A stretch of 64,000 nt of DNA from Gracilibacillus sp. YIM 98692 (GTDB lineage Bacteria > Bacillota > Bacilli > Bacillales > Amphibacillaceae): the NCBI RefSeq assembly GCF_010993965.1, contig NZ_WIXM01000003.1, forward strand, positions 62,001-126,000, read 5' to 3'. The position numbers and the translations under genes were made by a program. The notes beneath the pieces were generated by a model. It was not told the DNA's origin. It saw only the letters and a program-made list of their open reading frames with translations, and made no database searches. The first letter of the stretch is position 1. Each line of letters begins with the position of its first letter. Shown in pieces: positions 28,063 through 45,393 of this stretch.

Positions 28063-28072
28063 AACCAAGATA

Positions 28073-30664: not shown

Positions 30665-30687
30665 AATGCCTCCTTATACACATCATG

Positions 30688-32448
30688 CTAAGTGGTCAAC
30701 TTGTTTATTAAGTTTTTCAATCGTGCTCCTGATTTGCTTAAATTAGGATAAGCATAAGCTAGGAATTTTTTACGTGTATTCGCTGCATAACTACTAATTT
30801 GTCGATTCGTAAAATAACTAATAATGAGTTTAGCTAATATTCGAGGATCAGCTTGAACTAGTTTACCTAGCCTTTTATAGTATCCTGTATAACCGGAAAA
30901 GTTCGTGTTCAAAATAAACACACTTTTTTGAGCAAGCATAGCCTCTAAGCCTACTGTGGATGAATAGGTAACGACTGCATCAACATGTGGAAATATATCA
31001 TAAATAGTATAACCTTGTGTCGGATAAACAAATGAAAACTCTTTAGTTAATTTATGAGGCGTTTTACTTGGATAATTTTTAATGAGTATATTAAGATTTA
31101 TTTTTTTCGAAATAGTCTGGATTAACGTTCGCCATTTGTCGTCATCTTCGCTTCCTCTAGCAGCAATCATTAATGTTTTCTTTTTTGGATCTAACCCTAA
31201 TTTCCTATTGAATTGAGTACGTGTCATTTTAGGAGATGCAAACACTTCATCAAACCTTGGATGTCCGATAACCTCGGTAGATTGATCTGGGGCTCCCACT
31301 TTTTTGAACCAGTCTCTCTCAAAGTTTCCATATACTGCATCCACCGTTGCGATTTTCGGTATATATCCTAGTTCACTTGAAATGATCCCGTGCTGCATAC
31401 AAATGGTTGGAATCCCCTTTTCCGCAGCCACTAAAGCTAATATACGATTAATAAAACTATGTGTTGTCGATACAACTATACAAGAAATTGGAACTTTATT
31501 AAGAAAATTTTTAGTCATTTCAATATGATTTATAACTGTAGCAATATTATTTAAAAACCAAGTTTGGAATTTTTTATTCTTGTAAAAATGGTGCCCCTTA
31601 TAAGCTTTTAACATTTTTCTTGCCTGATTCTGTACCTGTGCTGCTGATTTATTTGTATCTATTGCGTAATTAAATAAATGATCGTAAGGAAATCTTTTTT
31701 GCAATGAAGTGTTCTTTTTCACTGCATTGTTCCTCTTTTTTACTGCATAGTTCTTTTTCCTTTGTTTCTCTGCATTTGTTAGTGATACAGCTTTCATTTT
31801 CTTATTGATAGGATTGGTACTTGATGGTCTAGCTTTGATCGCCTTCATATTACTACCTGATCTATATTTCTTATTTTTACTATTTAAAGATTGCTTTTTT
31901 GCATTCTTTCTTTTATTCTGTATTGATGAGCTTGTTTTTTTTACTGTGCGTTTATTATTAGTTGATGGGGCCGTTTTTTTCGCCTGGCTTTTTTTATTGG
32001 TTGATGGAGCAGGTTTTCTTGACCTACTCTTTTTACCGCTAGTTTTTTTCACCTTGCTTTTATTACGAGGTGAGCTAGTTTTTTTTCCCTTGGTTAGTAA
32101 AATAGTATTGGATGGATCCAAAAAATCATTTAACGTATGTGGTGGAAAACGGAGTAACTTATCAACATGTATGACAACTTTTCCATGTTTATTTTTTACT
32201 AACGGTTTTTGGTGTGATTGGATGAAATGATTAAACACCTCTTGAAACTCTTTTGGATCATTAACTCGATGTTTTAATTTCCTTATATAATTTTTATCCT
32301 TTAATTCATTCGAAATTTTATCATTATTAAGAATCAAACTAGGTAAATGACATAAATAAGGTAAGGAAAATCCTTTATAAATCAATTTCTCAAAATCTTT
32401 TATAAAATCAAGATACAGAGACCAATAATTCCTTGAAAATGTATCCAT
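30688..32448 (-). CDS. GT-B-like transferase paralogue with Lys/Ser-rich insertion
   Basis: 586 aa. Residues 1-120 and about 245-586 are colinear with the 475-aa neighbour (GIPTICMQHGIISSELG, VIGHPRFDEVF, VVTYSSTVGLEAMLAQKSVF). Between them lies about 115 residues of low-complexity, strongly basic sequence with repeated APSTN, KKTS and NKK words. This resembles Lys/Ser-rich spore coat segments such as those of CotB/CotG. The insertion probably arose by repeat expansion in the linker. Start ATG behind AGGAGG; 23 bp before the next gene. Function as for the paralogue, tentative. Confidence 0.7.
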   Translation of the reverse strand: MDTFSRNYWSLYLDFIKDFEKLIYKGFSLPYLCHLPSLILNNDKISNELKDKNYIRKLKHRVNDPKEFQEVFNHFIQSHQKPLVKNKHGKVVIHVDKLLRFPPHTLNDFLDPSNTILLTKGKKTSSPRNKSKVKKTSGKKSRSRKPAPSTNKKSQAKKTAPSTNNKRTVKKTSSSIQNKRKNAKKQSLNSKNKKYRSGSNMKAIKARPSSTNPINKKMKAVSLTNAEKQRKKNYAVKKRNNAVKKNTSLQKRFPYDHLFNYAIDTNKSAAQVQNQARKMLKAYKGHHFYKNKKFQTWFLNNIATVINHIEMTKNFLNKVPISCIVVSTTHSFINRILALVAAEKGIPTICMQHGIISSELGYIPKIATVDAVYGNFERDWFKKVGAPDQSTEVIGHPRFDEVFASPKMTRTQFNRKLGLDPKKKTLMIAARGSEDDDKWRTLIQTISKKINLNILIKNYPSKTPHKLTKEFSFVYPTQGYTIYDIFPHVDAVVTYSSTVGLEAMLAQKSVFILNTNFSGYTGYYKRLGKLVQADPRILAKLIISYFTNRQISSYAANTRKKFLAYAYPNLSKSGARLKNLINKLTT

Positions 32449-32477
32449 AGTAACCTCCTGACTTACTCTACCTATTT

Positions 32478-33482
32478 TTAAATTAACGCTGCTTCTTTAA
32501 GCAATAAACGTAATTCATTAGTGTTGATCGTTTCTTGACTACTAGAACTGTACGTTCCCGTTTTAGCCTTTTTAGCATGACGATATCTGTCTTCTCCACT
32601 TGAACTTCCGGGGATGATGAACATATCAGGTAACTCCCAAGCTAATATTGATTCATCGTATGTCATCAACTCTTCATACATTTTTTCTCCTGGTCTAAGC
32701 CCTGTCACTTCTATATCAATTTCTTCCCTTATTATTTGATGTTTTTTGCATGTTTCTTCTATTAAAATATCAGCTAAATCTCCTAAGTTAATGACAGGCA
32801 TTTTTAATACAAACACTTCACCGCCCTTTGCTTCCTTTAGAGCCTTAATTGTTAATTCAGTTGCCTGATTTAAAGTCATCATGAAACGTGTCATATTTTT
32901 ATCTGTAATGGAGACCTTCTTATTCTTAAGAATACTTTCTTTAAAAAGAGGAATGACTGAACCTCTTGAACCCATTACATTACCGAACCGTACACTAGCA
33001 AATATCGTTTCATTCTCTTTTCTGTTCCATTCAGCAGCTGAAATTAACCTTTCTGCAATAAGTTTTGTTGCTCCATATGAATTAGTGGGCGAAATAGCTT
33101 TATCTGAACTTGTAAAAATGACTTTTTTCACATTTTGGGAGATAGCCGCTTGCATTACATTATGAGTACCATGAACATTTGTTTTTACAGCTTCATACGG
33201 ATTGTTCTCACAAGAATCCACCCGTTTCATCGCAGCCAAATGCAACACATAATCAATGTCCTTCATTGCATTTAGCAAAGTATCGTATTCGCGAATATCT
33301 CCAATGATAAAACTTAATTTATCACTATTACCGAATTCATCTTGAAGTTTGTGTTGCTTATATTCATCCCGACTAAATATGTTTATCACTTGTGGATTTT
33401 CTTTTATCAGATGTTTTATTACACTTTTACCTATTGTTCCGGTACCACCGATAACCAATATTTTTTTTCCTTCAAAATACAC
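32478..33482 (-). CDS. pseB: UDP-GlcNAc 4,6-dehydratase, PseB/CapD-like
   Basis: 334 aa SDR of the CapD/PseB/FlaA1 group (polysaccharide biosynthesis protein). Rossmann motif VIGGTGTIGKSVIKHL, then SSDKAISPTNSYGATK with the active-site Tyr/Lys pair, then FGNVMGSRGSVIPLF, MTRFMMTL and GLRPGEKMYEELM. PseB makes the 4-keto-6-deoxy-altro intermediate that PseC aminates, so it supplies the otherwise missing first step of the pse genes 6 kb downstream. CapE/FnlA-type dehydratases are close relatives and cannot be excluded. GTG start behind GAGGGAGAAG. The 290 bp upstream hold a repeat fragment. Confidence 0.8.
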   Translation of the reverse strand: MYFEGKKILVIGGTGTIGKSVIKHLIKENPQVINIFSRDEYKQHKLQDEFGNSDKLSFIIGDIREYDTLLNAMKDIDYVLHLAAMKRVDSCENNPYEAVKTNVHGTHNVMQAAISQNVKKVIFTSSDKAISPTNSYGATKLIAERLISAAEWNRKENETIFASVRFGNVMGSRGSVIPLFKESILKNKKVSITDKNMTRFMMTLNQATELTIKALKEAKGGEVFVLKMPVINLGDLADILIEETCKKHQIIREEIDIEVTGLRPGEKMYEELMTYDESILAWELPDMFIIPGSSSGEDRYRHAKKAKTGTYSSSSQETINTNELRLLLKEAALI

Positions 33483-33608: not shown

Positions 33609-33770
33609 AAGAAAACTCGGCGATTGCCGAGCCTCTGGCGAGAGCAGAGCCGTAGTTACACTTATCTATCTTCCTATAATGGTCCACTACGTCGAGAATG
33701 CTTCCTTGCTGACCATTTGTACTTTCTGATACGGTAATACAAAACCGGGCAACTTACCTGGTACAACCAT
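33609..33770. repeat. Intergenic repeat fragment R2, copy 1
   Basis: AAAACTCGGCGATTGCCGAG, a short gap, and GCCGTAGTTACACTTAT match in order the sequence near 38463-38515 (AAAACTTGTCGATTGCC, gap, GACGTAGTTACGCTTTT). A shorter piece AAAACTTGGCGATTG recurs at 57849. The GC-richer stretch up to 33770 has no coding frame. Confidence 0.55.
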
Positions 33771-35038
33771 CACTTTGCCTGAATTTTAAAAAGATTGTTT
33801 CCTAATTTATTTATACAAATGTGATTGTTTTTACCCTCTATTTCATCTAATTTGTTAAAGAAATCCTGTATTTCTTTTTCTGTTAAAGAAAAACGTTGCT
33901 TCCCGCCCTTTACACCTTTGTTATGGAATAATTTTTTGGAAAGAGAAACTTTGTCGAATACCGGAGGTGGTAATGGAATCGTGTTACATAATCGAAGGAT
34001 AGATTCATAAGAATAATTTTCTGTTGACCATTCGCAATAATGAAACAAGTCTTTTTCGTTCCTATCTATATCATTTTCATTGATATTTTTAGTATTGTCT
34101 TTCTCATGTAATACATTTCTCAATTTAATATGCAATTCTTCCATATTAGTCGCCTTTATTCCTAATTGATTTGGAAGGTTCACCTCATTCTTATTAGAGA
34201 TAGGAGGCATATAGGATATTACCGGTTTACCAAGCAAAAATGCTTCAATACCCGATGTACACCCATTGTGTATCACAACTTTAGCAGCCAATAGCCATTT
34301 GATAATGTTACCTTCATGTATCACATGTGCATTTTTATAGGCGGAGAAAGCTTGACAGTAAGTTTCAAAGTTTTCTCCTGGATGTGGCCTGATAACAAAA
34401 TTAGTATCAGGGAATTTCTCACACATTACTTTAATCATTTCAACAAATTTATAATATAATGTTTTAATATGCTTATAATATACGTTATCTTTCATTCCTT
34501 TTTTAGAATTATATCTAGAAAATCTTGTGTTAATTAAAATAAAATCCCCATATTTGTTTATTAACTTTTCAGCATCCTTTTTATAAAGGCTTCTAAATTT
34601 TGGTTTTAAAAGATCAAGCCGTGGATTACCTACGATATAGCACTTCCCTTTATAATCAGGATTCACCCTAGTAATGACTTCTTTCTGGAAGTGTCCCCAA
34701 CAGTATTCCTGTGTGACTAACGGAAGCAATTCTTTTCTCAATCTGTTTTGAAGATAATTTTTAGGTTGGATAAGTAAACCTTCTTCATCTAATTCAACCA
34801 CTGAATGTCCATTTCTTTTGGCATTCGTGATAATCCTTTTTCTAAAACCATGCGGATAGCCTTTTGAAAAAAATATCCCTTTAGGGTATATCCCAGATGC
34901 TAATTCCACCATTATATGATCACCTATGACAACATTATAACCTTCTATAACTGCATAATATGCGAGTAACAACTTCGCATCTAATTCCCTTACTTTTTGC
35001 TCTACAGGTAAGTATAACCATCTATTGTATTTTTCCAC
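33770..35038 (-). CDS. Surface carbohydrate biosynthesis protein, GT-B-like, copy A
   Basis: 422 aa. It begins WLYLPVEQKVRELDAKLLLAY and carries GIFFSKG, YIVGNPRLDLL, VIRPHPGE and AAKVVIHNGCTSGIEAFLLG, a pattern of surface carbohydrate biosynthesis proteins distantly related to UDP-GlcNAc epimerase/GT-B enzymes. About 65% identical by eye to copy B (36952-38205). The GTG at 35038 is chosen because its AGAAGGGTTGT leader is the same as that of copy B; the longer frame from 35059 would include that leader. It lies downstream of the cysteine-rich gene and upstream of pseB. Presumed glycosyl or nonulosonate transferase. Confidence 0.75.
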   Translation of the reverse strand: MEKYNRWLYLPVEQKVRELDAKLLLAYYAVIEGYNVVIGDHIMVELASGIYPKGIFFSKGYPHGFRKRIITNAKRNGHSVVELDEEGLLIQPKNYLQNRLRKELLPLVTQEYCWGHFQKEVITRVNPDYKGKCYIVGNPRLDLLKPKFRSLYKKDAEKLINKYGDFILINTRFSRYNSKKGMKDNVYYKHIKTLYYKFVEMIKVMCEKFPDTNFVIRPHPGENFETYCQAFSAYKNAHVIHEGNIIKWLLAAKVVIHNGCTSGIEAFLLGKPVISYMPPISNKNEVNLPNQLGIKATNMEELHIKLRNVLHEKDNTKNINENDIDRNEKDLFHYCEWSTENYSYESILRLCNTIPLPPPVFDKVSLSKKLFHNKGVKGGKQRFSLTEKEIQDFFNKLDEIEGKNNHICINKLGNNLFKIQAK

Positions 35039-35106
35039 TGCTATACAACCCTTCTCCATATGAATAATTCCTATAACCCAAAACAGTAAATGATCGCCTT
35101 CATAGA

Positions 35107-35133
35107 AAAAAGAGAGGAGTATTTCCTCTCTTT
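35107..35133 (-). terminator. Terminator of cysteine-rich gene copy A
   Basis: AAAGAGAGGA / TCCTCTCTTT stem followed by TTTT on the minus strand. Copy B has an almost identical terminator at 39486-39510. Confidence 0.8.
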
Positions 35134-35150
35134 AACCCTACTTTTAAAAA

Positions 35151-35840
35151 TTACCCGATATCATTTGTATCGCCATTCCCATTGTTAGGAAATACGGCAG
35201 GACATTGTTGTGGCATGGTTGGCGCAGGGCATGGCGGGAATGGTAGTATATCTCTTGGTTGACAGAAGTCAGCAACTATTTCAAGTGTGACATCAAAAGT
35301 GGATTGAATGCTTTGACATAGACGAACTGTCACAGTCACATCAAGTTCATCCACCTCAGTCGTTGTTCCGGGATCACACGCTGCTGTACAAACAAAACAG
35401 TCTAAATCAGTATAAGTTACATCTACGTCAGTACCGTCCGGTGCACATAAAATGACCTGCTCACAGCGGGTAAATTCTACAGTACCGACTTCGACTGTGG
35501 CTCCTCCAAGCTCTGGTACTAAGTCAACAAAAATAGTGACGTCAAAGTTTTTACGAAGGTTTACTATTTGTAATGTCACTTCTTCTCCATCAACAGTAAA
35601 CACTTGATCTTCTCGATCCAAAACAACAATCGGATCTACTTCAGCAGGAGCAACCGTACATGTAACAGTATCCAGATCAATATCGTCACACTCTAATTGA
35701 TCACCAGTGACAGGGTTAACCGGTAATTCTAAATCATTTAAACTTAGATCAAAAGTTGCTTCATTAAGGATCCAATCAAATACTTTCTCTGTGTTAATAC
35801 ACAGAAGTTCCTGACCCCCAGTTAGATTATCTGACTGCAT
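35151..35840 (-). CDS. Cysteine-rich putative spore-surface protein, copy A
   Basis: 229 aa, acidic, beta-rich, with about a dozen cysteines (LLCIN, LECDD, TVTCTV, TRCEQ, ILCAPDG, DCFVCTAACD, VRLCQS, ADFCQPR, PPCPAP, QQCP) and a Pro/Gly/Asn-rich tail. No signal peptide. About 90% identical to copy B at 39528-40217. No family recognised; VTVRLCQSIQS then FCQPRDI hints at cysteine-bridged spore coat or exosporium proteins. A sigma-K-type promoter lies 37 bp upstream, so I infer a mother-cell structural protein of the outer spore layer. Start ATG behind GGAGGTG. Confidence 0.7.
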   Translation of the reverse strand: MQSDNLTGGQELLCINTEKVFDWILNEATFDLSLNDLELPVNPVTGDQLECDDIDLDTVTCTVAPAEVDPIVVLDREDQVFTVDGEEVTLQIVNLRKNFDVTIFVDLVPELGGATVEVGTVEFTRCEQVILCAPDGTDVDVTYTDLDCFVCTAACDPGTTTEVDELDVTVTVRLCQSIQSTFDVTLEIVADFCQPRDILPFPPCPAPTMPQQCPAVFPNNGNGDTNDIG

Positions 35841-35876
35841 CTAGTAGACACCTCCAAATAAGATTAATTTCATTTA

Positions 35877-35905
35877 TAGCCTATGACAGCTCACAACAAA
35901 ACGTT
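35877..35905 (-). promoter_or_regulatory. Sigma-K-like promoter, cysteine-rich copy A
   Basis: AC, 17 bp, CATAGGCTA matches the sigma-K pattern AC-N16/17-CATANNNTA. The same arrangement is kept at copy B. Confidence 0.65.
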
Positions 35906-35938
35906 AATGAATTAGTGGAAAAAATTGATACATTTGTC

Positions 35939-35965
35939 ACGAATTAATGATGCATCAATAATATG
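35939..35965 (+). promoter_or_regulatory. Sigma-K-like promoter, coiled-coil gene copy A
   Basis: AC, 16 bp, AATAATATG (two mismatches to CATANNNTA), back to back with the cysteine-rich promoter. The aligned position of copy B (40447-40473) is a better match. Confidence 0.4.
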
Positions 35966-36047
35966 TTAATGGGTTCTTAAATGGGCAAACGTGTTATTTT
36001 TTGGTCAATGGTAAACTAAAATCATCATTTGAAAGGGGAATAAAAGA

Positions 36048-36602
36048 ATGGAAGGTAATCAAAATAATCAAATAGAAAAATTAACGGGATATGGGAAGCA
36101 GATGTACAACATTTCAGACAAAATTCAGAATATTAATGACTCATTAAACCAATTAAAGCAAGAGGTGAATTTGATTAAGAGTGAAGTAGAAGAAATACGT
36201 GTTAATGAATTACTTGAAAAGATGGATATGGTAATGAATAAAACAGATGAGAATTTAACAAATATACAAACGGAAGTTTATTCACAGAAAGAAGAACTTT
36301 CTCAACTTGAAGATCACATGAAACAAAATACTCCTAACAAACCAAAAAGTCGTAAACCTTCAGAATATAGACAATTACAAAATATGCTGCGATCTGTTAA
36401 CAATGTGGGGCAAACTTCCAACCAAATCAACAGTAGCATGTCAAATAGAAGCACTTTTAATCAAACGACATCTATCAATCAAAAATCTCGACGCACTGGC
36501 CAGAACACCATTCCAACGAGCAAAGGAAAAAAGATGTTTCGAGGCTCCCAATATGATTTAAACAAAAATACTATTACCCGTATCTCCACTTCAAAAAAAT
36601 AA
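36048..36602 (+). CDS. Coiled-coil, Asn/Ser/Thr-rich basic protein, copy A (short form)
   Basis: 184 aa. Residues about 10-95 form a heptad-rich coiled coil (IQNINDSLNQLKQEVNLIKS, ELLEKMDMVMNKTDENLTNI). The rest is basic and Asn/Ser/Thr-rich (PSEYRQLQNMLRSVNNVGQ, MSNRSTFNQTTSINQKSRR). It aligns with residues about 85-245 of copy B at 40502-41671 and ends where copy B continues into a long disordered tail. No family recognised. Divergent from the cysteine-rich gene and followed by a tiny basic peptide gene. The Ser/Thr-rich tail could be a glycosylation target. Confidence 0.7.
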   Translation: MEGNQNNQIEKLTGYGKQMYNISDKIQNINDSLNQLKQEVNLIKSEVEEIRVNELLEKMDMVMNKTDENLTNIQTEVYSQKEELSQLEDHMKQNTPNKPKSRKPSEYRQLQNMLRSVNNVGQTSNQINSSMSNRSTFNQTTSINQKSRRTGQNTIPTSKGKKMFRGSQYDLNKNTITRISTSKK

Positions 36603-36674
36603 AATGATCAATCAAGCAATGTTAAGCCCCTTTTTTATAGAACGATTTCATTAGCCCAAACTTTTTTTATAAAA

Positions 36675-36694
36675 AATACTATAATGCACTATAA
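36675..36694 (+). promoter_or_regulatory. Conserved 20-bp upstream box of small peptide A
   Basis: The 20-bp box ending ATGCACTATAA is identical at 42112-42131 upstream of small peptide B, at the same distance from GGGAGCTGAT. It includes TATAAT but no good -35, so the sigma factor is not assigned. Confidence 0.5.
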
Positions 36695-36715
36695 CCAAAC
36701 AGGGAGCTGATAATT

Positions 36716-36859
36716 ATGAAGGGAAAAAAAGTGAATAAGATAGTAAGCAACTCTAAACATATAAGACATACTAATCAGCCCATAGAAATTAATTCGTCAT
36801 CGATTAAAAGAAGAACGATAAGACGAAGAGGCGGCTGTGGCTGCAGGAAATCAGTTTAG
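36716..36859 (+). CDS. Small basic Gly-Gly-Cys peptide, copy A
   Basis: 47 aa: starts MKGKKVNKIVSNS, has TNQPIEINSSSIKRRTI in the middle and ends RRRGGCGCRKSV. Net charge is strongly positive, with two Cys near the end. ATG with an AGGGAGCTGAT site. The central NQPIEINSS-IKR-TI-R-GGC core is kept in the peptide at 42152-42277, although the ends differ, which supports a real, selected gene. Function unknown: coat protein, RiPP-like precursor or cross-linked peptide are all possible. Confidence 0.65.
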   Translation: MKGKKVNKIVSNSKHIRHTNQPIEINSSSIKRRTIRRRGGCGCRKSV

Positions 36860-36951
36860 TCAATTCTTAAAATTAGAAACAGATGAGATGATTTTATCAA
36901 ACACGTTTTCCTAAGTATGAGGCGCTTAAAATAAACTGCTTTAACTAGATA

Positions 36952-38205
36952 TTACCTTTTTTGAATTTGATACAGGTTATTTCCTAACTTCCTTATAATA
37001 AGATGACTACTCTCCCCCTCTATCTCATCTAATTTCCTGTAAAAATCCTTGATTTCTTTTTCTGTTAGCGAGAAGCGGCGTTTCCGTTTCTTATTACCTT
37101 TCATAAGAAATGGCATTTTGGTCAAGGATAATTTTTTTGGTTGTGGCGGCAGTTGAATCCTATTACATAAACGTAGAATAGATTCATAGGAAAAATTGTC
37201 CTTTGACCAGTTACAATAGTAAAACAAACCTTTTTCGCTCTGATCCATTTGCTTTGCATGATCTTGGGGTTCGTTCTTATATAGTATATCCTCTAGACGA
37301 GCATTTACTTCATCTTTATTAGAAGCCTTAAATCCCAGTTGATTAGGAATATTCATCTCATTTGAGGTGAAAGGTACATAGGAGATTAATGGTTTTCCAA
37401 GCAGAAATGCCTCAATACCTGAGGTACAACCATTGTGTATAATGACTTTAGCAGCCAAAAGCCACTTAATAATGTTCCCTTCATGAACCACATGTACGTT
37501 ATGATTACCAGCGAGAGCTTTACGGTAAGATGCAAAGTTTTCTCCTGGATGCGGTCTAATGATAATATTTATATTCGGAAATTTTTCGCATGTTTCTTTA
37601 ATCATTTCCAAAAAGATGTAATATAATTGTTTGATATGTTTAAAATGAATGTTATCTTTCTTCCCTTTTGCTGCATTATATTGAGAAAATCTCGTATTGA
37701 TTAAAATAAACTCTCCATATTTATTTATGATTTGTTCTGTATCTTCTTTATAGATACTCATAAATTTCGGTTTTAAAAGATCGAATCGTGGATTTCCAAC
37801 AATATGGCACTTCTTTTTATAATCTGGATTCGCTCCAATAATAACTTCTTTTTGATATGATCCCCAACAGTATTCCTGTGTGACTAACTGAAGCATATCT
37901 CTTCTCATTCTATCTCGAAGATATTGTTTCTCTTTAAAAAGTAGCCCTTCCTCATCCAATTCAACTATCTCGTGACCATTTTTTTTGACATTTGTAATAA
38001 TCCTTTTTCTAAATCCATGTGGACCGCCTTTTGAAAAGAAAATCCCTTTTGGATATTCCTCTGCTGCTAATTCAACCATGATATGATCACCAAGAACAAC
38101 TTGATATCCTTCCTTGGCGGCATAATAGGATAATAGTAACTTAGCATCTGATTCTCTAACTTTTACTTCTACAGGTAAATATAACAATCCTTTATTTTTT
38201 TTCAC
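36952..38205 (-). CDS. Surface carbohydrate biosynthesis protein, GT-B-like, copy B
   Basis: 417 aa paralogue of the 33770-35038 protein with the same landmarks: LLYLPVEVKVRESDAKLLLSY, GIFFSKGGPHGFRKR, HIVGNPRFDLL, IIRPHPGE and AAKVIIHNGCTSGIEAFLLG. GTG start at 38205 behind AGAAGGGTTGTACAAAG. It is convergent with small peptide A. A GC-rich repeat lies immediately upstream, between it and the next gene of the probable transcript. Presumed transferase for a spore-surface glycan. Confidence 0.75.
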   Translation of the reverse strand: MKKNKGLLYLPVEVKVRESDAKLLLSYYAAKEGYQVVLGDHIMVELAAEEYPKGIFFSKGGPHGFRKRIITNVKKNGHEIVELDEEGLLFKEKQYLRDRMRRDMLQLVTQEYCWGSYQKEVIIGANPDYKKKCHIVGNPRFDLLKPKFMSIYKEDTEQIINKYGEFILINTRFSQYNAAKGKKDNIHFKHIKQLYYIFLEMIKETCEKFPNINIIIRPHPGENFASYRKALAGNHNVHVVHEGNIIKWLLAAKVIIHNGCTSGIEAFLLGKPLISYVPFTSNEMNIPNQLGFKASNKDEVNARLEDILYKNEPQDHAKQMDQSEKGLFYYCNWSKDNFSYESILRLCNRIQLPPQPKKLSLTKMPFLMKGNKKRKRRFSLTEKEIKDFYRKLDEIEGESSHLIIRKLGNNLYQIQKR

Positions 38206-38295
38206 CTTTGTACAACCCTTCTAGAATAATATACTAAGAAAAACTTGGTTCGCTCTTATTCCTTGTATAATTGGCGAGCTTCATCACCGATGATA

Positions 38296-38520
38296 TGATT
38301 CGGGTGAACGGAAGGCGACGACTCCAGCGGGAAAGCATGTGTCCGAAGACCCCGCAGAGCGAAGCATGAGCTCGGGGAGGCTGAGGCCATGCCCGCGGAA
38401 AGCGTTCGCCTGAAGAGAACCCGAACGGTGGGATAGCATCCAAAATAGAACACTATGGTAGAGAAAACTTGTCGATTGCCCAACCTTGATGAAGTCAGAG
38501 ACGTAGTTACGCTTTTAACC
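38296..38520. repeat. GC-rich Bacillaceae intergenic repeat followed by R2 copy 2
   Basis: 38296-38425 is a GC-rich block with CGACGACTCCAGCGGGA, CCGAAGACCCCGCAG, GGAGGCTGAGGCC and GCCCGCGGAAAGCG, a mobile palindromic repeat seen in many Bacillaceae genomes. It differs sharply in composition from its surroundings. It is followed at 38463-38515 by the R2 fragment shared with 33609-33660. Apparent frames in this block are artefacts of high GC. Confidence 0.75.
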
Positions 38521-38525
38521 CTAAA

Positions 38526-38831
38526 CTAAGTTCTTTCCTTTAAAATATCGATCATTTCTTCAAATGCCGCTTTGCTTTCCTCTATCATGGAGTCCAGAGA
38601 CAGAGAAATTTCCTCTAAATCAGGTGATGGGTCTTCATACCTTGAACCATTAGCTTGTTGATTCTCTAAATGCATAAACATATAAGTCATTAACATATTG
38701 AGCGTGTTATTCTCTAAAAAAATAAAACTATTATTATCCTTTTGCTGACTTTCATTGTTTAACCGGTCGGTATATTGTCTCATAGAATTCCGAATCAGTT
38801 GTTGCATCAACTCATTGTTTTTGTTATTCAT
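38526..38831 (-). CDS. Hypothetical protein, 101 aa, Asn/Gln-rich
   Basis: Start placed at ATG 38831, 9 bp behind AAGGAGG; the frame from 38861 would include that site. The ATG overlaps the stop of the preceding gene by 8 bp, indicating translational coupling. Sequence: MNNKNNELMQQLIRNSMRQY, an Asn/Gln-rich middle, then an acidic helical C-terminus (SLDSMIEESKAAFEEMIDIL). Not recognised. Part of the operon that begins with cysteine-rich copy B; absent from module A. Confidence 0.65.
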   Translation of the reverse strand: MNNKNNELMQQLIRNSMRQYTDRLNNESQQKDNNSFIFLENNTLNMLMTYMFMHLENQQANGSRYEDPSPDLEEISLSLDSMIEESKAAFEEMIDILKERT

Positions 38832-39411
38832 CCTCATATACCTCCTTCTCATCATCAACATTGTCTACCTTACCATTAATGTTGATTTGATTCAGAGCAT
38901 TTATTCCCTGAGTAATCTCATCCCCATATGTAAAACCTTGTATGCTGCCTGAATAAGAGGCTTCTGGAAGCCATTTGATTTGAAAGTTAGGAAATGTTAC
39001 TGTCTCGGAAGGTTCAAGTGTACGCTTATCATTCGGTTTTAGCCAAAATTCTTCTTTATCTGTCGGTTCATTAAGTCTCTCCCATGCATTTGTTAATCGG
39101 ACTGTTTGCCTTGAATTTTTATACAAATATTTACCAGAAAAATCGAAAACAGAATCTGAAGATACTTTTATACAAATATATGGATTAGTAAGCGGCTCAC
39201 CTCCTATATTTTGAATGTGATAGGAACCAAGGCAAAAATTTTCACGTCCAGGTTCATGGGATATATTTAAAGAATAGGTGAAGTAACTAATAACTTGAAA
39301 TTTTTTCGATGCTTTTATTTCCGTAACTAATGATTTCATTTCTTTTAGGTAAGAAGTATTCATTTCTTGCCAATTCAACATTTTCTTACGTACATCATTC
39401 ATTTTATCCAT
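38824..39411 (-). CDS. Hypothetical protein, 195 aa
   Basis: Start placed at ATG 39411 behind GGAGGTG; an in-frame GTG at 39429 overlaps that site. A helical N-terminus (about 1-40) is followed by a beta-rich domain: FCLGSYHIQNIGGEPLTNPY, ICIKVSSDSVFDFSGK and FWLKPNDKRTLEPSETVTFP. The latter resembles an adaptor or Ig-like fold in which NxGG-type loops are common. Acidic C-terminal tail. No family recognised. It overlaps the 101-aa gene and lies 117 bp after the cysteine-rich copy B, behind that gene's terminator. Confidence 0.65.
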   Translation of the reverse strand: MDKMNDVRKKMLNWQEMNTSYLKEMKSLVTEIKASKKFQVISYFTYSLNISHEPGRENFCLGSYHIQNIGGEPLTNPYICIKVSSDSVFDFSGKYLYKNSRQTVRLTNAWERLNEPTDKEEFWLKPNDKRTLEPSETVTFPNFQIKWLPEASYSGSIQGFTYGDEITQGINALNQININGKVDNVDDEKEVYEDE

Positions 39412-39485
39412 AAAATCATTCACCTCCACAAAGGATATTGAGTTAAATCCTTATTTCTCTTATGCTTTCTGATAGAATAAAAATA

Positions 39486-39510
39486 AAGAGAGGAGTATTT
39501 TCCTCTCTTT
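39486..39510 (-). terminator. Terminator of cysteine-rich gene copy B
   Basis: AAAGAGAGGA / TCCTCTCTTT stem followed by ATTTTTA on the minus strand, matching the terminator of copy A. Confidence 0.8.
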
Positions 39511-39527
39511 AAACCTATGCTGAAAAA

Positions 39528-40217
39528 TTATCCGTTATCACCTGTATCGCCATTCCCATTGTTAGGGAAAACGGCAGGGCATTGTAGTGGAATGGTTGGT
39601 GCTGGACATGGCGGGAATGGTAGTATATCTCTTGGTTGACAGAAGTCGGCAACAAGCTCAAGCGTTACAGGAAAAGTGGATTGAATACTTTGGCATAGAC
39701 GAACTGTCACAGTCACATCCAGTTCATCCACCTCAGTTGTTGTTCCAGGATCACACGCTGCTGTACAAACAAAGCAGTCTAAATCAGTAAAAGTTACATC
39801 TATGTCTGTACCCTCCGGTGCACATAAAATGACCTGCTCACAGCGGGTGAATTCTACAGTACCGACTTCGACTGTTGCTCCTCCAAGCTCTGGTACTAAG
39901 TCTACAAAAATAGTTACTTCAAAGTTTTTGCGAAGGTTCACAATTTGTAATGTCACTTCTGCCCCATCAACTACAAATACCTGATCTTCTCGATCCAATA
40001 CCTCGATCGGATTGTCTTCAGCAGGAGCAACCGTACATGTAACAGTATCAAGATCAACATCGTCACACTCTAATTGATCACCAGTTACAGGGTTGACCGG
40101 TAAATCTAAGTCATTTAAAGTTAGATCAAAAGTTGCTTCGTTTAGAATCCAGTCAAATACTTTCTCTGTGTTAATACACAGAAGTTCCTGCCCTCCAGTT
40201 AAATTATCTGCTTGCAT
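39528..40217 (-). CDS. Cysteine-rich putative spore-surface protein, copy B
   Basis: 229 aa, same length as copy A and nearly identical, with all cysteines kept. Differences are mostly conservative and cluster near DRED-QVF and the last ten residues (TGDNG against TNDIG). The flanking promoter and terminator are also conserved, so the unit duplicated with its control signals and has diverged little, unlike the glycan genes around it. Inferred outer spore-layer structural protein. ATG behind GGAGGTG. Confidence 0.7.
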   Translation of the reverse strand: MQADNLTGGQELLCINTEKVFDWILNEATFDLTLNDLDLPVNPVTGDQLECDDVDLDTVTCTVAPAEDNPIEVLDREDQVFVVDGAEVTLQIVNLRKNFEVTIFVDLVPELGGATVEVGTVEFTRCEQVILCAPEGTDIDVTFTDLDCFVCTAACDPGTTTEVDELDVTVTVRLCQSIQSTFPVTLELVADFCQPRDILPFPPCPAPTIPLQCPAVFPNNGNGDTGDNG

Positions 40218-40252
40218 TATGCAAACACCTCCAAATAAGATTAATGTCCTTA

Positions 40253-40281
40253 TAGCCTATGACAGTACCCTACAAAACGTT
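40253..40281 (-). promoter_or_regulatory. Sigma-K-like promoter, cysteine-rich copy B
   Basis: AC, 17 bp, CATAGGCTA, identical -10 to copy A, 36 bp before the ATG. Confidence 0.65.
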
Positions 40282-40446
40282 TTAGTGAATTAGCGGAAAT
40301 ATCATGATATTTAGGAAGTTGGGTGAATATCATACTTACAATAGTACTCCGCAATTGCACAACAACAACCATGACTTACAGTAGTGCTTAAGGTTAGAAC
40401 GCAAGGGCAGAACGTTTCCAATTAGCAAAAACATAGCACATCTGTC

Positions 40447-40473
40447 ACGATTTGATGTTTCATCAATATTATA
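40447..40473 (+). promoter_or_regulatory. Sigma-K-like promoter, coiled-coil gene copy B
   Basis: AC, 16 bp, AATATTATA (one mismatch to CATANNNTA), 28 bp before the ATG. Confidence 0.5.
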
Positions 40474-40501
40474 TTAATGTACTGAAAAAGGGTGAATACT
40501 C

Positions 40502-41671
40502 ATGTATCAATATAGGCTGTATAACTCTGAAGACGTTGGGAAATTAAAACGAGATCTAGAAGTCTATAAATCTACGTTAGAATCCTTAGATTCGAGTGAG
40601 GAATCCAAATATCTCAAGACGCAAAGGGAATTATATGATTTAAAATTAAAATTTTCTAAATTTAAAGGGGAAATGAAGGTTATGGAAGAAATGTATCAAG
40701 AGAAAATAACCGAGTATGAAAAGCAGGAGCAAATACTTTCCGGGCAAATACAATCTATTAATAATTCTATAAATCAACTAAAACGAGACGTGAACTTAAT
40801 TAAAGGTGAAGTGAAAGAAATGCGTTTTAAAGAAATGCATGAAAAGATGAATATGGTAATTAGTAAGACAGAAGATAATTTAACAAATATTAAAAATCAA
40901 ATCGATACACAAAAACAAGAATTTTCACAACTAAAAGAACAGGTGAAATCAAACCCTCCTAAGAAAACAACTCGTCGTAGAATGTCAGAATACAGACAAT
41001 TACAAAATATGCTGCAATCTAATAATATGAATCAAGCTTCCAACCAAACTAATAATAGCATGACAAATAGAAGTAGAAATCAATCAACATCAATCAACCA
41101 TAAATCTCGTCGAACAAGATCTTTTGACAATAATCAAAATACTATATCAATAAATAAAGGAACAAAAACCTTTCACAGTTCTCAATATGGCTTAAACAAG
41201 AATATCATTACCCGAACGTCTACACCAGAAAAACCAAAAAAAGTAAATAATGACAGTAATAAGCATTACAACGAAAAAACTTCCGAATCTAAGAAGGAAA
41301 AAACTTCTTCTCTTTCCAACGATAATTCTACAAAAAAAAGCATAGAAACACCTCTGAATACTAAAAACCACTCAGAAAAGAATATAGAGCAACCTCAAAA
41401 ACAAGACACAAACCGTGTATCTACCGATAACAATACTTCTCCAAACACAACAGACGAACCCATTTCAAATAAAACAGATAAGACTAATCAAGGTATTACC
41501 GCTACAAAAAATACGACAGACGAAAATTCTATTTCTACAAAAACTAAAACAAAAGAAGGCTTCACATCTACAGAAAAACAAAATAATGAAAAAAATCAAC
41601 GAGATGATCAGGAGCAATCAAGCATAAAAAAAGATTTGGCTTCATTCTTTAACATCTTCAGGAAGGGTTAA
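40502..41671 (+). CDS. Coiled-coil protein with long disordered Lys/Asn/Thr tail, copy B
   Basis: 389 aa. Residues about 5-150 are coiled coil (LKRDLEVYKSTLESLDSSEE, INNSINQLKRDVNLIKGEVK). Residues about 155-250 are basic and Asn/Ser-rich, matching copy A (MSEYRQLQNMLQSNNMNQAS, SSQYGLNKN). Residues about 250-375 are low-complexity Lys/Thr/Asn/Glu sequence, and the end is KKDLASFFNIFRKG, a short amphipathic helix. No family recognised. It forms an operon with the JAMM gene 3 bp downstream. The tail length suggests a fibrous or glycosylated spore-surface component. Confidence 0.7.
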   Translation: MYQYRLYNSEDVGKLKRDLEVYKSTLESLDSSEESKYLKTQRELYDLKLKFSKFKGEMKVMEEMYQEKITEYEKQEQILSGQIQSINNSINQLKRDVNLIKGEVKEMRFKEMHEKMNMVISKTEDNLTNIKNQIDTQKQEFSQLKEQVKSNPPKKTTRRRMSEYRQLQNMLQSNNMNQASNQTNNSMTNRSRNQSTSINHKSRRTRSFDNNQNTISINKGTKTFHSSQYGLNKNIITRTSTPEKPKKVNNDSNKHYNEKTSESKKEKTSSLSNDNSTKKSIETPLNTKNHSEKNIEQPQKQDTNRVSTDNNTSPNTTDEPISNKTDKTNQGITATKNTTDENSISTKTKTKEGFTSTEKQNNEKNQRDDQEQSSIKKDLASFFNIFRKG

Positions 41672-41674
41672 AAT

Positions 41675-42076
41675 ATGAATAAAAAAAAGATCATTATACC
41701 GCAATTCATTTATAATAAAATGCTTGAAAATGGCAGGTCACATCTACCCTATGAATCATGCGGCTTGTTATCGGGTAAGGATAATCATGTTCTGTCCATA
41801 TGGCCATTGAAAAACGAAGTGAAGTCAGTAAGCCGTTTCTTTGTTAAAAAGGAAATAGTTGAGGAATCCATACAAAAAATAAAACAACTGGAAGAACAGG
41901 TATTAGCCATTTATCACACTCATCCAACTACAGACCCTGTTCCTTCCAGTTATGATGTTTTAAATCATTCTGATGATAATGTAGATATGGTTATTATTTC
42001 ATATAAAACAAATTCACCAAAAACAAAATGGTATCACATTCAAGGCTCCAATTATGTTGAGCGCCTTTTTTTATAG
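41675..42076 (+). CDS. JAMM/MPN-family metalloprotease (M67-like)
   Basis: 133 aa, a single MPN domain. The full JAMM zinc motif is present: Glu27 in LPYESCGLLSG, then His81, His83, Ser91 and Asp94 in HTHPTTDPVPSSYD (HxH-x7-S-x2-D). Such enzymes cleave peptide or isopeptide bonds; bacterial ones also act in cysteine and cofactor pathways with ThiS/MoaD-like carriers. Here it lies 3 bp after the coiled-coil gene and 75 bp before the small Gly-Gly-Cys peptide, so that peptide or the coiled-coil protein is a candidate substrate. This is inference. Confidence 0.88.
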   Translation: MNKKKIIIPQFIYNKMLENGRSHLPYESCGLLSGKDNHVLSIWPLKNEVKSVSRFFVKKEIVEESIQKIKQLEEQVLAIYHTHPTTDPVPSSYDVLNHSDDNVDMVIISYKTNSPKTKWYHIQGSNYVERLFL

Positions 42077-42111
42077 ATCCTTCCTAATCGTCCAACCTCT
42101 TTTGCATCTTT

Positions 42112-42131
42112 AATACTATAATGCACTATAA
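42112..42131 (+). promoter_or_regulatory. Conserved 20-bp upstream box of small peptide B
   Basis: Identical over 20 bp to 36675-36694, again followed by GGGAGCTGATA and the start codon. Confidence 0.5.
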
Positions 42132-42151
42132 AAGAAGGGAGCTGATACAAA

Positions 42152-42277
42152 TTGAAAGCAAAAACAATAAGAAGAAAAGTAAAACCTGTCAAACGTTCTA
42201 ATCAACCGATTGAAATCAATTCCTCAACCATTAAAAGAACAACGATAAAACGAAAAGGTGGCTGCTGCCTGAAATAA
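42152..42277 (+). CDS. Small basic Gly-Gly-Cys peptide, copy B
   Basis: 41 aa with a TTG start behind GGGAGCTGAT: starts MKAKTIRRKVKPVKR, has SNQPIEINSSTIKRTTI in the middle and ends KRKGGCCLK. Its core matches peptide A while the N-terminus has diverged, and codon changes between the two are largely silent or conservative. Basic, with adjacent cysteines at the end. Lies last in the coiled-coil/JAMM group. Confidence 0.62.
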   Translation: MKAKTIRRKVKPVKRSNQPIEINSSTIKRTTIKRKGGCCLK

Positions 42278-42713: not shown

Positions 42714-43892
42714 TTAATCTTTAGCATTTAGAAGTATTTCTGCAACTTCTCTAATAGCACCTTTACCTCCATCAACTTTAGTAACATAATCTGCCGCGTC
42801 TTTAACACTTTCTATTCCATCATTTACTGTACAGCCGAATCCTACAGCTTTTATTACTTCTAGATCATTGATATCATCACCAATATAAGCAATTTCATCA
42901 TAACTTAAATCAAACTTCCCACACATTTCATCAAGAATTTTCATTTTATTTTTAATACCGAGATATACTATATCAACCTTCATTTTTGCTGCTCTTCTTT
43001 TAACTAATTCAATATTTTCTCCTGTTATTATACCAGTTTTTAATCCTTTTTCTTGTAACAGTTTAAAACCCATGCCGTCTTTTGTATTAAACTTTTTGAG
43101 TTCATGTCCCGTTTCTGAATAATACATTCCCCCATCAGTTAACACTCCATCACAGTCTGCCAATAAACATTTAATATTACGTATTTTTTCATTTCCGCAA
43201 GATTTTTGGCCTGTTGTCCTTTTGAGTAAGTTTTCGACTAATATCCAATCATTAGGTTCATCTATTTCATAATAAGATTCCTCTCGCAATTCTACGGTAG
43301 CCACATTTCCTGAAATACGACACTTAGTTTTTAGTAATCTATTTCTCGATGTAATATAAAAAGCACCATTTTCAACTAAAAAACCATCAAACTCTTGTCT
43401 TCGCGGCCTATTCAACGGATCATAATTCACTGGTTTCGCAGTAAGGTTTGATTTTTCCCATATAAACCGTTTTTGCCTAACAACAGATAGGACACTATCA
43501 ATTGTTACATGGCTATATTTTTCAATACCTTTATTTAAATCCCTACTAGTCAAAAGTGGAGAAGTAGCTTGTACTAAAACAATATCTTCAAAATAATAAT
43601 TTGATGCAAATTCAAGCATTACTGACTCAGTACTTGCTGAATCCGTAGATACATCTTTAGAGCGACCTATTACCATTATTTTATCAGACCCGTATTGATT
43701 AACCGTGTATTTTATTTCATTACTATCCGTAGCGACTACAACCTTATCAATTTTTTCACAATTAACAGCAGCATCTAAAACCCAATATACTAGTGGACGT
43801 CCATTAATTTTTTTTACATTTTTTAGTGGAATAGATTTACTCTTCCCTCTTAAAGGTATAAATGCCACTGTCTTGCCAATTCTGCTCACCAT
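42714..43892 (-). CDS. Fusion: acylneuraminate cytidylyltransferase + KdsC-type HAD phosphatase
   Basis: 392 aa. Residues about 7-225 are a CMP-nonulosonate synthetase: AFIPLRGKSKSIPLKNVKKI, VVATDSNEI, LVQATSPLLTSRD and NGAFYIT. Residues about 238-390 are a KdsC/YrbI-like HAD phosphatase: LLADCDGVLTDG with Asp246 and Asp248, then TGENIELVKRRA, YIGDDINDLEVI and GGKGAIREVAE. The pairing suggests that the nonulosonate is made as a 9-phosphate (Neu5Ac-9-P or KDN-9-P), dephosphorylated and then CMP-activated by one protein. CMP synthetase-HAD fusions exist in animals and some bacteria. ATG behind GGGGAGAG; a GTG four codons downstream is less well placed. Confidence 0.88.
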   Translation of the reverse strand: MVSRIGKTVAFIPLRGKSKSIPLKNVKKINGRPLVYWVLDAAVNCEKIDKVVVATDSNEIKYTVNQYGSDKIMVIGRSKDVSTDSASTESVMLEFASNYYFEDIVLVQATSPLLTSRDLNKGIEKYSHVTIDSVLSVVRQKRFIWEKSNLTAKPVNYDPLNRPRRQEFDGFLVENGAFYITSRNRLLKTKCRISGNVATVELREESYYEIDEPNDWILVENLLKRTTGQKSCGNEKIRNIKCLLADCDGVLTDGGMYYSETGHELKKFNTKDGMGFKLLQEKGLKTGIITGENIELVKRRAAKMKVDIVYLGIKNKMKILDEMCGKFDLSYDEIAYIGDDINDLEVIKAVGFGCTVNDGIESVKDAADYVTKVDGGKGAIREVAEILLNAKD

Positions 43893-43904
43893 TTATCTCT
43901 CCCC

Positions 43905-44140
43905 ATACTTTAACTTTGGAAACTTTTTCAATAAATTAGGACTTCATTTTTTATAGTCTAAAGCTTTCCTTTGTAGAAGTAATACCAAACTCTTCACACC
44001 ATTCTTTTAGCTATGCAAGTTGTTCAACCCTGAACTCTAAATATTCTCTGTGCTGAGCATAGGTATCACCTAAAGAACGAATGGGATTTGGATATGATGC
44101 ATTTTATTGTTATGGCGTTAGTAACTCCTTGTTATTTCTA
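43905..44140 (-). pseudogene. Internally deleted duplicate of neuB
   Basis: The sequence aligns with both ends of the neuB gene at 45394-46266. About 43905-43973 matches its 3' end (near 45410-45480), and 43974-44140 matches 45977-46140 (ATACCAAACTC, CTCTAAATATTCTCT, GGATTTGGAT). About 500 bp between them are missing and several bases have drifted, so no product is made. The upstream bases of both following genes (TATCTCTCCCC-type) are also shared, showing that a neuB-next-gene junction was duplicated. Confidence 0.75.
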
Positions 44141-44158
44141 ATTAATTAATAAATTAAA

Positions 44159-45391
44159 TTACTTATCTAAATATGGTTCGACATATTTTTCTTCCATTAA
44201 TTCGACATATTTTTCTGGAGTTAATTTTAGTACCGATTTAAGTGTTTTGTCAGCCTGAAATTGCTTCATTTTCCAAAGATTTTTCACAAAATTAAATTGT
44301 GTAATAATGTCATGTGCAGCAAATGAATACCATAAACTACGGTTCTCTTTTCGTTTATTATGATAACCATTATAATGTGGTGTATTTGAAAGGTATAAGT
44401 TATTGTGGAAAACTTTTATAAACTTCGGATTGAAATGGAGAATATCAAATAAGACATTAGGAAGAAGGAGTGAACTACCATTAAATAAAAATTCTTCAGG
44501 TGACCTAAACTTTCTGCCTTTATGAGCAGCTATCAATTTATTCTGAAAACTATGCTTTAAAGATTTAAAACACGTAAAGTCTAATGCATTAAGAAAGTTA
44601 ATATTATCCAACCGCTTTAAGTTCCCAACAGTTCCATTATTATAATACGAAACATTTATTCTATTACCAAATCCTTCGCTTGGTAGATGGTTATCTCCTA
44701 TATAATTGAACCTAACCACAATATCAAAAGAATTAATCTCAGCTGATAAATCCTCCTCTATTGGTGCAGGTCCGACAATAGCTATTGTTTTACCATTTAT
44801 ATAATTAAAAAATGCCTGATCTTCTGAAAAAAGCTTCTTACTTAATTTACTTGTTAGTTCTTTATCTCCTTTTAATATAGAATAGAGAATTTCCATTCTG
44901 TTTAAGCGTGATTTTTCTAATGAATTTTTCTTTAAACTTAGAAGAGCCTGATTGGCTTTATCCAGGTCACCTTGATCAATATATGCTTTAAAGCCTTGTA
45001 TTAATGTATTACTGTTCATTGTATAATCTAATAATTGATATGCACTTTTGATAGATTTATTTCGTGCAATATTAGCAACCTGAAATAAACCGTTGTTCAT
45101 ACATAAGAACACCAAAAGATTCCATCTAATTGAAGGTAATAATGTTGCGTCTAGTTTTATTGTACTGTAAACAAGAGTATTTGAATAATTCGTGTTATAA
45201 TTATTCAAATTAAGCCTCTCTTCAATCGACTTCAGAAGAATATTAATATAATTTTCTGGTAACCCCTTGTAGTTTTTTAAGGAACTTTTAAATATATCGT
45301 TTAACATTGAGACCCCTGACTGAAAGGCTTCTTCAGTCCCAATTTTCAATTTGCTTACTAGCTTAGATTGTACTTCCCTTTTGTTAACCAA
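44159..45391 (-). CDS. Sialyltransferase-like protein (GT29/GT42-like) with helical N-domain
   Basis: 410 aa. Residues about 1-195 are helical, repeat-like and unrecognised. Residues about 200-260 read KTIAIVGPAP, then EINSFDIVVRFNY and FGNRINVSYYNNG. This is laid out like sialylmotif L of GT29 or the equivalent of GT42 (VG, an ID-x-FD-xx-xRfN pattern, G). FNGSSLLLPNVLFDILHFNP near 300 fits motif S, and a later His lies in SFAAHDIITQFN. It starts with a TTG behind AGGGAGAG, 3 bp after neuB, so it is translationally coupled to nonulosonate synthesis. Likely transfers the nonulosonate to a surface acceptor; the family call is by motif only. Confidence 0.65.
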   Translation of the reverse strand: MVNKREVQSKLVSKLKIGTEEAFQSGVSMLNDIFKSSLKNYKGLPENYINILLKSIEERLNLNNYNTNYSNTLVYSTIKLDATLLPSIRWNLLVFLCMNNGLFQVANIARNKSIKSAYQLLDYTMNSNTLIQGFKAYIDQGDLDKANQALLSLKKNSLEKSRLNRMEILYSILKGDKELTSKLSKKLFSEDQAFFNYINGKTIAIVGPAPIEEDLSAEINSFDIVVRFNYIGDNHLPSEGFGNRINVSYYNNGTVGNLKRLDNINFLNALDFTCFKSLKHSFQNKLIAAHKGRKFRSPEEFLFNGSSLLLPNVLFDILHFNPKFIKVFHNNLYLSNTPHYNGYHNKRKENRSLWYSFAAHDIITQFNFVKNLWKMKQFQADKTLKSVLKLTPEKYVELMEEKYVEPYLDK

Positions 45392-45393
45392 GC

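Follow-up and report, generated by a model that had tools for sequence, protein, structure and literature searches.

A BMQ_0737-family gene module linked to pseudaminic-type glycan genes in Gracilibacillus: a probable outer-layer assembly of the spore

Introduction

Two described spore-surface systems lie close to the subject of this study, a double gene set in the genome of Gracilibacillus sp. YIM 98692. One is BMQ_0737 of Bacillus megaterium; its fusion to green fluorescent protein (GFP) was located among the outer-layer proteins of the spores and, like CotX1 and CotX2, was bound by anti-GFP antisera, from which the authors infer an outermost position (PMC4656864). The other is the sps system of Bacillus subtilis, whose genes lead to legionaminic acid for the crust and include SpsB, a putative TagB-type transferase that is involved in surface maturation and is dispensable for legionaminic acid transfer (PMC7439481).

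We analyzed a stretch of 64,000 nucleotides (contig NZ_WIXM01000003.1, positions 62,001 to 126,000; G000:C23:62001-126000 in our set), hereafter the window. Two adjacent gene sets, encoded on both strands, occupy positions 33770-42277 of the window. They contain two genes for Cys-rich proteins of the BMQ_0737 family (CR_A and CR_B), accompanied by genes for glycosyltransferases (GT), coiled-coil (CC) proteins, two small proteins (p201 and p111), a JAMM metalloprotease and short basic peptides. Our reading is that the locus encodes the assembly of an outer spore layer and is linked to a glycan operon of the pseudaminic type.

Results

CR_A and CR_B, with Cys at 12 of 229 residues each, match NCBIfam NF052457 (BMQ_0737 family morphogenetic spore coat protein) over the whole profile. 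An initial annotation, made before any database search, had stated that no structural protein of the locus matches a known family; this has to be withdrawn for the CR proteins and does not hold for the transferases (TIGR04396, surface carbohydrate biosynthesis) or the JAMM protease (PF14464) either. Nothing over a curated cut-off in Pfam or NCBIfam was found for p201, p111, the coiled-coil proteins and the peptides.

We surveyed the class in 398 genomes, 268 with SpoIVA and 130 without a SpoIVA match. The CR family was found in 62 genomes and p201 in 63, with both in 60, and in 62 of its 67 places p201 is no more than 4 kb from CR (Fisher p = 7e-65; the genomes are related and phylogeny is uncorrected). 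SpoIVA is present in all 62 CR genomes, and no CR was found in the 130 genomes that gave no SpoIVA match (lists compared by eye); the family was also absent from 14 control genomes, B. subtilis included. Among the bacteria surveyed, the CR family is restricted to spore formers, and p201 is its near-obligate partner across several families of spore formers. The exceptions are CR without p201 in G171 (a fragment) and G339 (below the cut-off), and p201 without CR in G014, G174 and G269, the last of these weak, with three stops, and probably due to chance. The p201 match of G014 (G014:C14:48979-49548), a genome in which the CR family was not found, is strong (E 1.1e-83) and contains one in-frame stop.

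The p201 model (predicted local distance difference test, pLDDT, 82) combines an N-terminal helix (residues 2-34) with a sandwich similar to Ig-like and adhesin domains; it aligns with integrin alpha-IIb (3fcs_A) at VIA Z 10.4 (root-mean-square deviation, rmsd, 3.2 over 126 residues) and with TTHA1873 (7wwo_A) at VIA Z 10.3 (rmsd 2.8 over 123 residues). Values of about 10 in these model comparisons may reflect a common arrangement rather than kinship. CR is predicted to be a beta protein (pLDDT 62). Neither CR nor p201 has a relative at E 1 among PDB sequences, and a Pfam search at E 0.01 gave no family for six proteins of distant genomes, four of them long p201 relatives and two coiled-coil proteins.

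One scan of named genomes yielded 14 loci (eight from Gracilibacillus, two from Aquibacillus, two from Alkalibacillus, one from Oceanobacillus and one from Compostibacillus), every one of which contains CR, p201, a coiled-coil gene and a transferase related to GT_A and GT_B. It should be noted that p201 and p111 form one frame in L035, that the transferase is split over two frames in L042, and that p201 of L044-L046 is a more distant copy (29-31% identity) past the JAMM gene. JAMM is found in 12 loci, pseB in 13 (unseen in L039, a short contig) and a second CR copy in 10; no second transferase was seen in any of the 14, within the stretches examined. Co-occurrence outside this strain, which the initial annotation had left to be checked, is therefore found both for the set, in 14 of 14 named loci, and for CR with p201 class-wide.

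Every open reading frame (ORF) of the initial annotation was found at the coordinates it gave (Table 1), although the longest frames of p201 and p111 are 201 and 111 aa and the sizes of 195 and 101 aa require later ATG starts. Copy A has the order GT_A(-), CR_A(-), CC_A(+), pep_A(+), and copy B the order GT_B(-), p111(-), p201(-), CR_B(-), CC_B(+), JAMM(+), pep_B(+); the description as two copies of the same set is thus correct for the paired genes but not for the 195-aa, 101-aa and JAMM genes, which copy A lacks. Because of the gene content of the 14 named loci, none of which has a second transferase, copy B appears to be the complete core and copy A a partial, old duplicate, and the extra transferase appears, within the named set, particular to the window.

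Table 1. Features of the locus and its flanks (window positions)
Feature	Position	Strand	Basis or remark
Flanking pseudaminic-acid-type glycan operon	21604..33482	-	PseI, PseH, PseG, cytidylyltransferase, PseC, dehydratase-like protein, PseB-like protein, two weakly BFO_1060-transferase-like proteins
GT_A, 429-aa surface-carbohydrate glycosyltransferase, copy A (extra copy)	33770..35059	-	TIGR04396 359.9 bits, cut-off 125
Terminator-like inverted repeat 3' of CR_A	35108..35134	-	by eye; within stretch conserved between copies
CR_A, 229-aa Cys-rich BMQ_0737-family outer spore-layer protein, copy A	35151..35840	-	NF052457 209.2 bits, cut-off 71
CR_A sigma-K-type promoter, AC-N17-CATAGGCTA	35877..35904	-	motif search
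CC_A, 184-aa coiled-coil protein, short copy	36048..36602	+	60% identity to CC_B over 173 aa
pep_A, 47-aa basic peptide, GGCGC tail	36716..36859	+	ORF, alignment
GT_B, 417-aa surface-carbohydrate glycosyltransferase, copy B	36952..38205	-	TIGR04396 368.4 bits, cut-off 125; 67% identity to GT_A
p111 (101 aa from later ATG), small protein downstream of p201	38526..38861	-	profile matches in 12/14 named loci
p201 (195 aa from ATG), predicted N-terminal helix and Ig-like beta sandwich	38824..39411	-	regular CR-family partner
Terminator-like inverted repeat 3' of CR_B	39486..39511	-	by eye; within stretch conserved between copies
CR_B, 229-aa Cys-rich BMQ_0737-family protein, copy B	39528..40217	-	NF052457 206.2 bits, cut-off 71
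CR_B sigma-K-type promoter	40253..40280	-	motif search
CC_B, 389-aa coiled-coil protein, first gene of divergent operon	40502..41671	+	ORF, relatives
JAMM/MPN+ metalloprotease; catalytic E27, H81, H83, S91, D94 kept	41675..42076	+	PF14464 54.5 bits, cut-off 25
pep_B, 41-aa basic peptide, GGCC tail, 76 bp past JAMM	42152..42277	+	ORF, alignment
Second nonulosonate-type set	42714..46266	-	cytidylyltransferase fused to HAD phosphatase; family-less 410-aa protein; NeuB-like synthase

The initial annotation had put the likeness of the Cys-rich copies, with their promoters and terminators, at about 90%, and blastn of copy A against copy B bears this out (35102-35921 versus 39477-40299, 88.8% of 824 bp). 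The strong divergence it had claimed for the transferases (73.7% over 1278 bp) and coiled-coil genes (71.3% over 541 bp) is likewise real, and the peptide genes are 72.2% alike over 245 bp. At the protein level, the identities are 92% of 229 (CR), 67% of 417 (GT), 60% of 173 (CC) and 61% of 41 residues (peptide). In a tree of 31 CR sequences, the copies group by genome in 4 of 11 pair-bearing loci, with supports of 95/78 in the window, 98/88 in L041 (the only starred one), 88/89 in L039 and 87/87 in L037, and both CR positions retain their own neighbours. Gene conversion is the likely history of the CR pair of the window, with moderate tree support. A GC-rich dispersed repeat lies between GT_B and p111 (38285-38440), with 43 matches in its own genome at E 0.001, itself included, most of them partial.

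At the DNA level, CR_A and CR_B match only each other in their genome; the profile search gave two further family members, C14:10734 and C2:90848, the latter below the cut-off. The former, the third BMQ_0737-family gene of the genome (L047 8732-9436, G000:C14), adjoins a 1194-aa protein with many short repeats, and no match to module partners was found there. The latter is a sub-threshold CR domain (G000:C2:90848-91264) within a 463-aa frame; CR domains inside longer frames (about 300-990 aa) occur in many genomes.

The nearest relatives of the module proteins are those of Aquibacillus albus (JAMM 76%, CC_B 55%), compared to 49-55% and 32-41% in Gracilibacillus loci, several of which were counted as the same genus as the genome of the window. 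FabI is 88% identical in Aquibacillus albus and 85-89% in four same-genus genomes, with just a 58% match in G047; horizontal transfer of the locus was considered and no claim is made, as the FabI comparison does not discriminate. On a Lysinibacillus fusiformis plasmid, the coiled-coil, CR, p201 and p111 profiles match with E-values of 7e-44, 8e-78, 8e-77 and 6e-24; CR and p201 are annotated there as hypothetical only, the genes adjoin one annotated as "exosporium glycoprotein BclB-related protein", and JAMM and the tail peptide were not found in that plasmid stretch. Two plasmid records named Stenotrophomonas rhizophila (CP065518.1 and CP031730.1) have the Lysinibacillus-plasmid arrangement, with CR and p201 43-49% identical to those of the window, and their host names may be wrong.

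The module set stays together in distant loci, with an orientation that varies between lineages. The CR, p201, p111, coiled-coil and JAMM profiles applied to these loci, to the JAMM and tail-peptide counts and to the Lysinibacillus plasmid derive from the fetched loci themselves. In window-like loci, and also in L055, L056 and L063, the coiled-coil, JAMM and peptide genes are divergent from CR and p201; the same holds for the coiled coil only in L115 and L116, and for coiled coil and peptide, with no JAMM, in L104, L106, L107 and L109. Distant loci with a longer CR (L110, L118, L119, L120 and L123) have p201 reversed, and CR is co-oriented with JAMM in four of these five, the exception being L120. 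The length of the coiled-coil protein ranges from about 100 to 1767 aa across loci. Its C-termini recur as FNPF[KR] in many distant loci, as FFS[FIL]F[KR]-like or LLAKSLWKK in the relatives of the window, and as FFDFFKRWS in Lysinibacillus.

The catalytic Glu and the H-x-H-P-x6-S-x2-D motif of JAMM are invariant in 15 of 15 aligned sequences, and HxHPx6Sx2D is present in 50 of 50 module-type JAMMs as well as in 6 of 6 others; a narrower motif fixing the residues after the catalytic Glu fits 38 of the 50, just neighbouring residues being different. A strong Prok-JAB hit was found in 42 of the 62 CR genomes among the matches listed: within 10 kb of CR in 37, on another contig in four and 288 kb off in one. 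For the counts, 30 extra JAMM loci (L124-L153) were taken as the best Prok-JAB hits, many from one genus. JAMM and CR lie on different contigs in L128, L133 and L144, for which module membership was assumed; of the six other JAMM loci, five come from CR-less genomes and one (L151) from a CR genome. We dropped duplicates (L049, L050, L052 and L057, equal to L036, L043, L040 and L039), L135 and L142 from the JAMM/tail count, and L047, L048 and L054 as other copies or a lone CR.

The tail peptide, small, basic and ending in G-C-C or G-C-x-C, occurs in the window and in all 14 named relatives. Alignments of 17 sequences, and of 20 from diverse loci, leave Gly-Cys and one more Cys invariant, several peptides having S, R, K, A or V in place of the first Gly of the tail; the N-terminal part is group-specific, with a P-[IV]-x-[IVL]-x-S-S-like stretch common to several (by eye). 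The peptide is probably a real gene, since the nonsynonymous rate is far below the synonymous rate (dN/dS) in both close pairs tested (0.010/0.086 and 0.169/1.040). It lies within 100 bp of a module-type JAMM, on the same strand, in 32 of 48 non-redundant loci and within 6 kb in 42 of 48, compared to 0 of 6 other JAMM loci; a tail ORF was found within 100 bp of 18 of 235 other ORFs, a control that includes ORFs overlapping the peptide itself. The peptide is also found beside CR without JAMM, e.g., in L104, L106, L107, L109 and L111; for JAMM and the tail, Fisher p is 0.0016, for related genomes and uncorrected for phylogeny. ORFs that pass a strict tail rule are denser near CR (0.054 per kb up to 5 kb away, 31 ORFs) than elsewhere (0.015 per kb, 5 ORFs). 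Therefore, the peptide appears to be tied to CR first and to JAMM second.

Of 26 regions upstream of CR, 25 contain the motif AC-N14-17-CATANNNTA at a distance of 62-93 bases from the start of the gene, where shuffled sequences would lead one to expect 0.35; this motif fits the sigma-K consensus. Upstream of coiled-coil genes it occurs in 6 of 28 cases (0.73 expected). The initial annotation had called the whole module sigma-K-type, a label that is too broad, as the motif is consistent at the 229-aa genes only. Most coiled-coil genes adjoining CR_B have a conserved upstream block of their own, not sigma-K (by eye); at CC_B and in the same place in relatives, it is a block of about 50 bp (about 40440-40490 of the window).

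The TIGR04396-type transferase and the glycan operon are linked to the module in close relatives. GT_A and GT_B score 92.7 and 99.1 bits against the BFO_1060 transferase model NF046086 and do not reach its cut-off of 200. In the flanking operon, the PseC, PseH, PseG and PseI equivalogs exceed their cut-offs; PseB reaches 313.1 of 407.75 and PseF 33.5 of 205.7. This operon presumably resembles the B. subtilis sps genes; by analogy with sps, GT_A and GT_B are candidate spore-surface transferases. On the other side of the locus, a cytidylyltransferase-HAD phosphatase fusion (42714-43892; 166.2 bits with the KDN-9-phosphatase model, 180 needed) lies near a NeuB-like synthase, and a second nonulosonate is possible. 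Between the NeuB-like and pyruvyl transferase genes, frames at 46141-47042 resemble transposase remnants by eye. Farther on, an HTH (helix-turn-helix) protein is followed by a MEDS-domain protein (52208-53684), with a LysM cell-wall hydrolase adjoining at 53917.

Discussion

We consider it probable (about 0.72) that the products of this module build the outermost protein layer of the spore and decorate it. Family memberships, co-occurrence, synteny, the restriction to SpoIVA genomes within the sample, the CR promoter motif and the intact catalytic residues carry this reading. In the model that we infer, CR would be made in the mother cell late in sporulation from its sigma-K promoter, together with its partner p201, whose Ig-like sandwich on a helical stalk could be either a second subunit of the CR layer or its tether. 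CR would polymerize, and disulfides would lock the polymer. The neighbouring genes would provide a coiled-coil spacer and the small basic peptide, with its invariant Gly-Cys-(x)-Cys tail as a putative cross-linker or anchor, and in many lineages JAMM would mature a module protein, the likeliest substrates being the peptide tail and the coiled-coil protein. Modification of the layer by the TIGR04396 transferases, with sugars from the linked pseudaminic-type operon, would follow in the Gracilibacillus group.

Several results weigh against this reading. The distant loci scanned gave no listed transferase-profile match, and glycan-type genes were single only. Prok-JAB is missing from 20 of the 62 CR genomes among the matches listed, and JAMM from 2 of the 14 named loci (L037 and L038) with the peptide retained; of these two genomes, one lacks any Prok-JAB match and the other has a weak one of 25.3 bits. 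A tail ORF was scored in 7 of 23 JAMM-less module loci (one of them, 6.2 kb away, probably by chance), which means that the peptide does not depend on the protease; under the strict tail rule, which misses the peptides of L044, L046 and L119, the peptide lies within 5 kb of CR in just 30 of 49 module loci. The sigma-K-type motif was found in none of 16 peptide, 14 transferase and 13 pseB upstream regions (the count left out the L035 and L042 transferases and the L035 pseB, and L039 has no pseB in the stretch examined). Finally, the CR model gave no Foldseek match at E 0.001 and a best VIA Z of 3.4, although this model is weak and thus uninformative on the fold.

These genes could instead be ordinary coat or exosporium genes, expressed independently late in sporulation under shared regulation, with no joint assembly and with JAMM and the peptide as passengers. 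The separate occurrence of JAMM and peptide, the wide range of coiled-coil lengths, the lineage-variable gene orientation and a sigma-K motif consistent at CR only would all fit; however, CR and p201 are almost inseparable (60 genomes common to 62 and 63) and the set remains clustered in distant loci, so that we regard this explanation as somewhat unlikely. A role in making the capsule or S-layer of vegetative cells, and not in spores, is hardly credible: pse- and neu-type genes and transferases are also found in vegetative surface glycan loci, but in our sample the CR family occurs only in genomes with SpoIVA, and CR carries a sigma-K-type promoter. BMQ_0737 itself is a spore protein (PMC4656864).

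The GG-C tail adjoining an intact JAMM raises the question of ubiquitin-like conjugation, in which JAMM would cut the G-G-C tail so that the freed Gly-Gly end could be joined to spore proteins. In known systems, the cut made by JAMM proteases falls after Gly-Gly. Yet a comparison by eye of 14 genomes, some with short contigs, placed no ThiF/E1 on the CR contig less than 10 kb from CR; one of these genomes, G409, has JAMM and peptide but just sub-threshold ThiF matches, the first tail Gly is not conserved, and the peptides look shorter than a beta-grasp fold would need. Conjugation, which we dropped after the ThiF search in the 14 genomes, is highly improbable. A narrower proposal is that JAMM and the GC(x)C-tailed peptide are an enzyme-substrate pair that builds the spore surface without ubiquitin-like conjugation machinery; JAMM would trim the encoded Gly-Cys tail, and thereby time or anchor the disulfide assembly of the CR/p201 layer. 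We consider this pairing, and equally this role for it, quite unlikely because peptide and JAMM are separable, and the link between them is genomic only.

The initial annotation had seen an undescribed glycosylated spore-surface assembly; the spore surface and the glycan operon are supported, and "undescribed" does not apply to the CR family, which was already known. Within that family, an outermost-layer location is known for BMQ_0737-GFP only, and BMQ_0737 is presumably known from one species. The novelty lies in the partners of CR and not in CR itself: no description of p201, the tail peptide or JAMM in spore assembly was found in the accessible literature, most subscription papers being outside its reach. 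These partners, recurring across several families of spore formers, provide a short gene list for outer-layer building outside the subtilis and cereus groups. They also place a JAMM protease in spore morphogenesis, where the literature search found no report of one, and the tiny cysteine-tailed peptide, often beside this ubiquitin-protease-like enzyme, appears to be an undescribed regular partner of the CR family.

Among known systems, Ena subunits, which we take to be DUF3992 proteins, are small structural subunits of the spore surface, as the module proteins would be. The same is true of F-ENA, given as DUF4183 (PMC11952670), whereas a Pfam search with CR gave nothing at E 1 or better. With JAMM/MPN+ proteases, the JAMM of the window has the fold family and catalytic set in common, the nearest PDB chain being 2kks (uncharacterized), followed by JAMM1 (5lda and 5ld9); it remains below the cut-off of the desampylase model NF041370 (37.8 of 130 bits) and has no E1 nearby. 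As in the sps/crust system of B. subtilis, a nonulosonate operon with transferase genes adjoins spore-surface genes, and CotZ and CotO genes are also in the window; however, the PseI, PseH, PseG and PseC equivalogs are of the pseudaminic and not the legionaminic type. CR_A and CR_B are clear members of the family of BMQ_0737 of Priestia (Bacillus) megaterium QM B1551, to which the window adds paired copies and a partner set, undescribed in the accessible literature, of p201, coiled coil, tail peptide and often JAMM.

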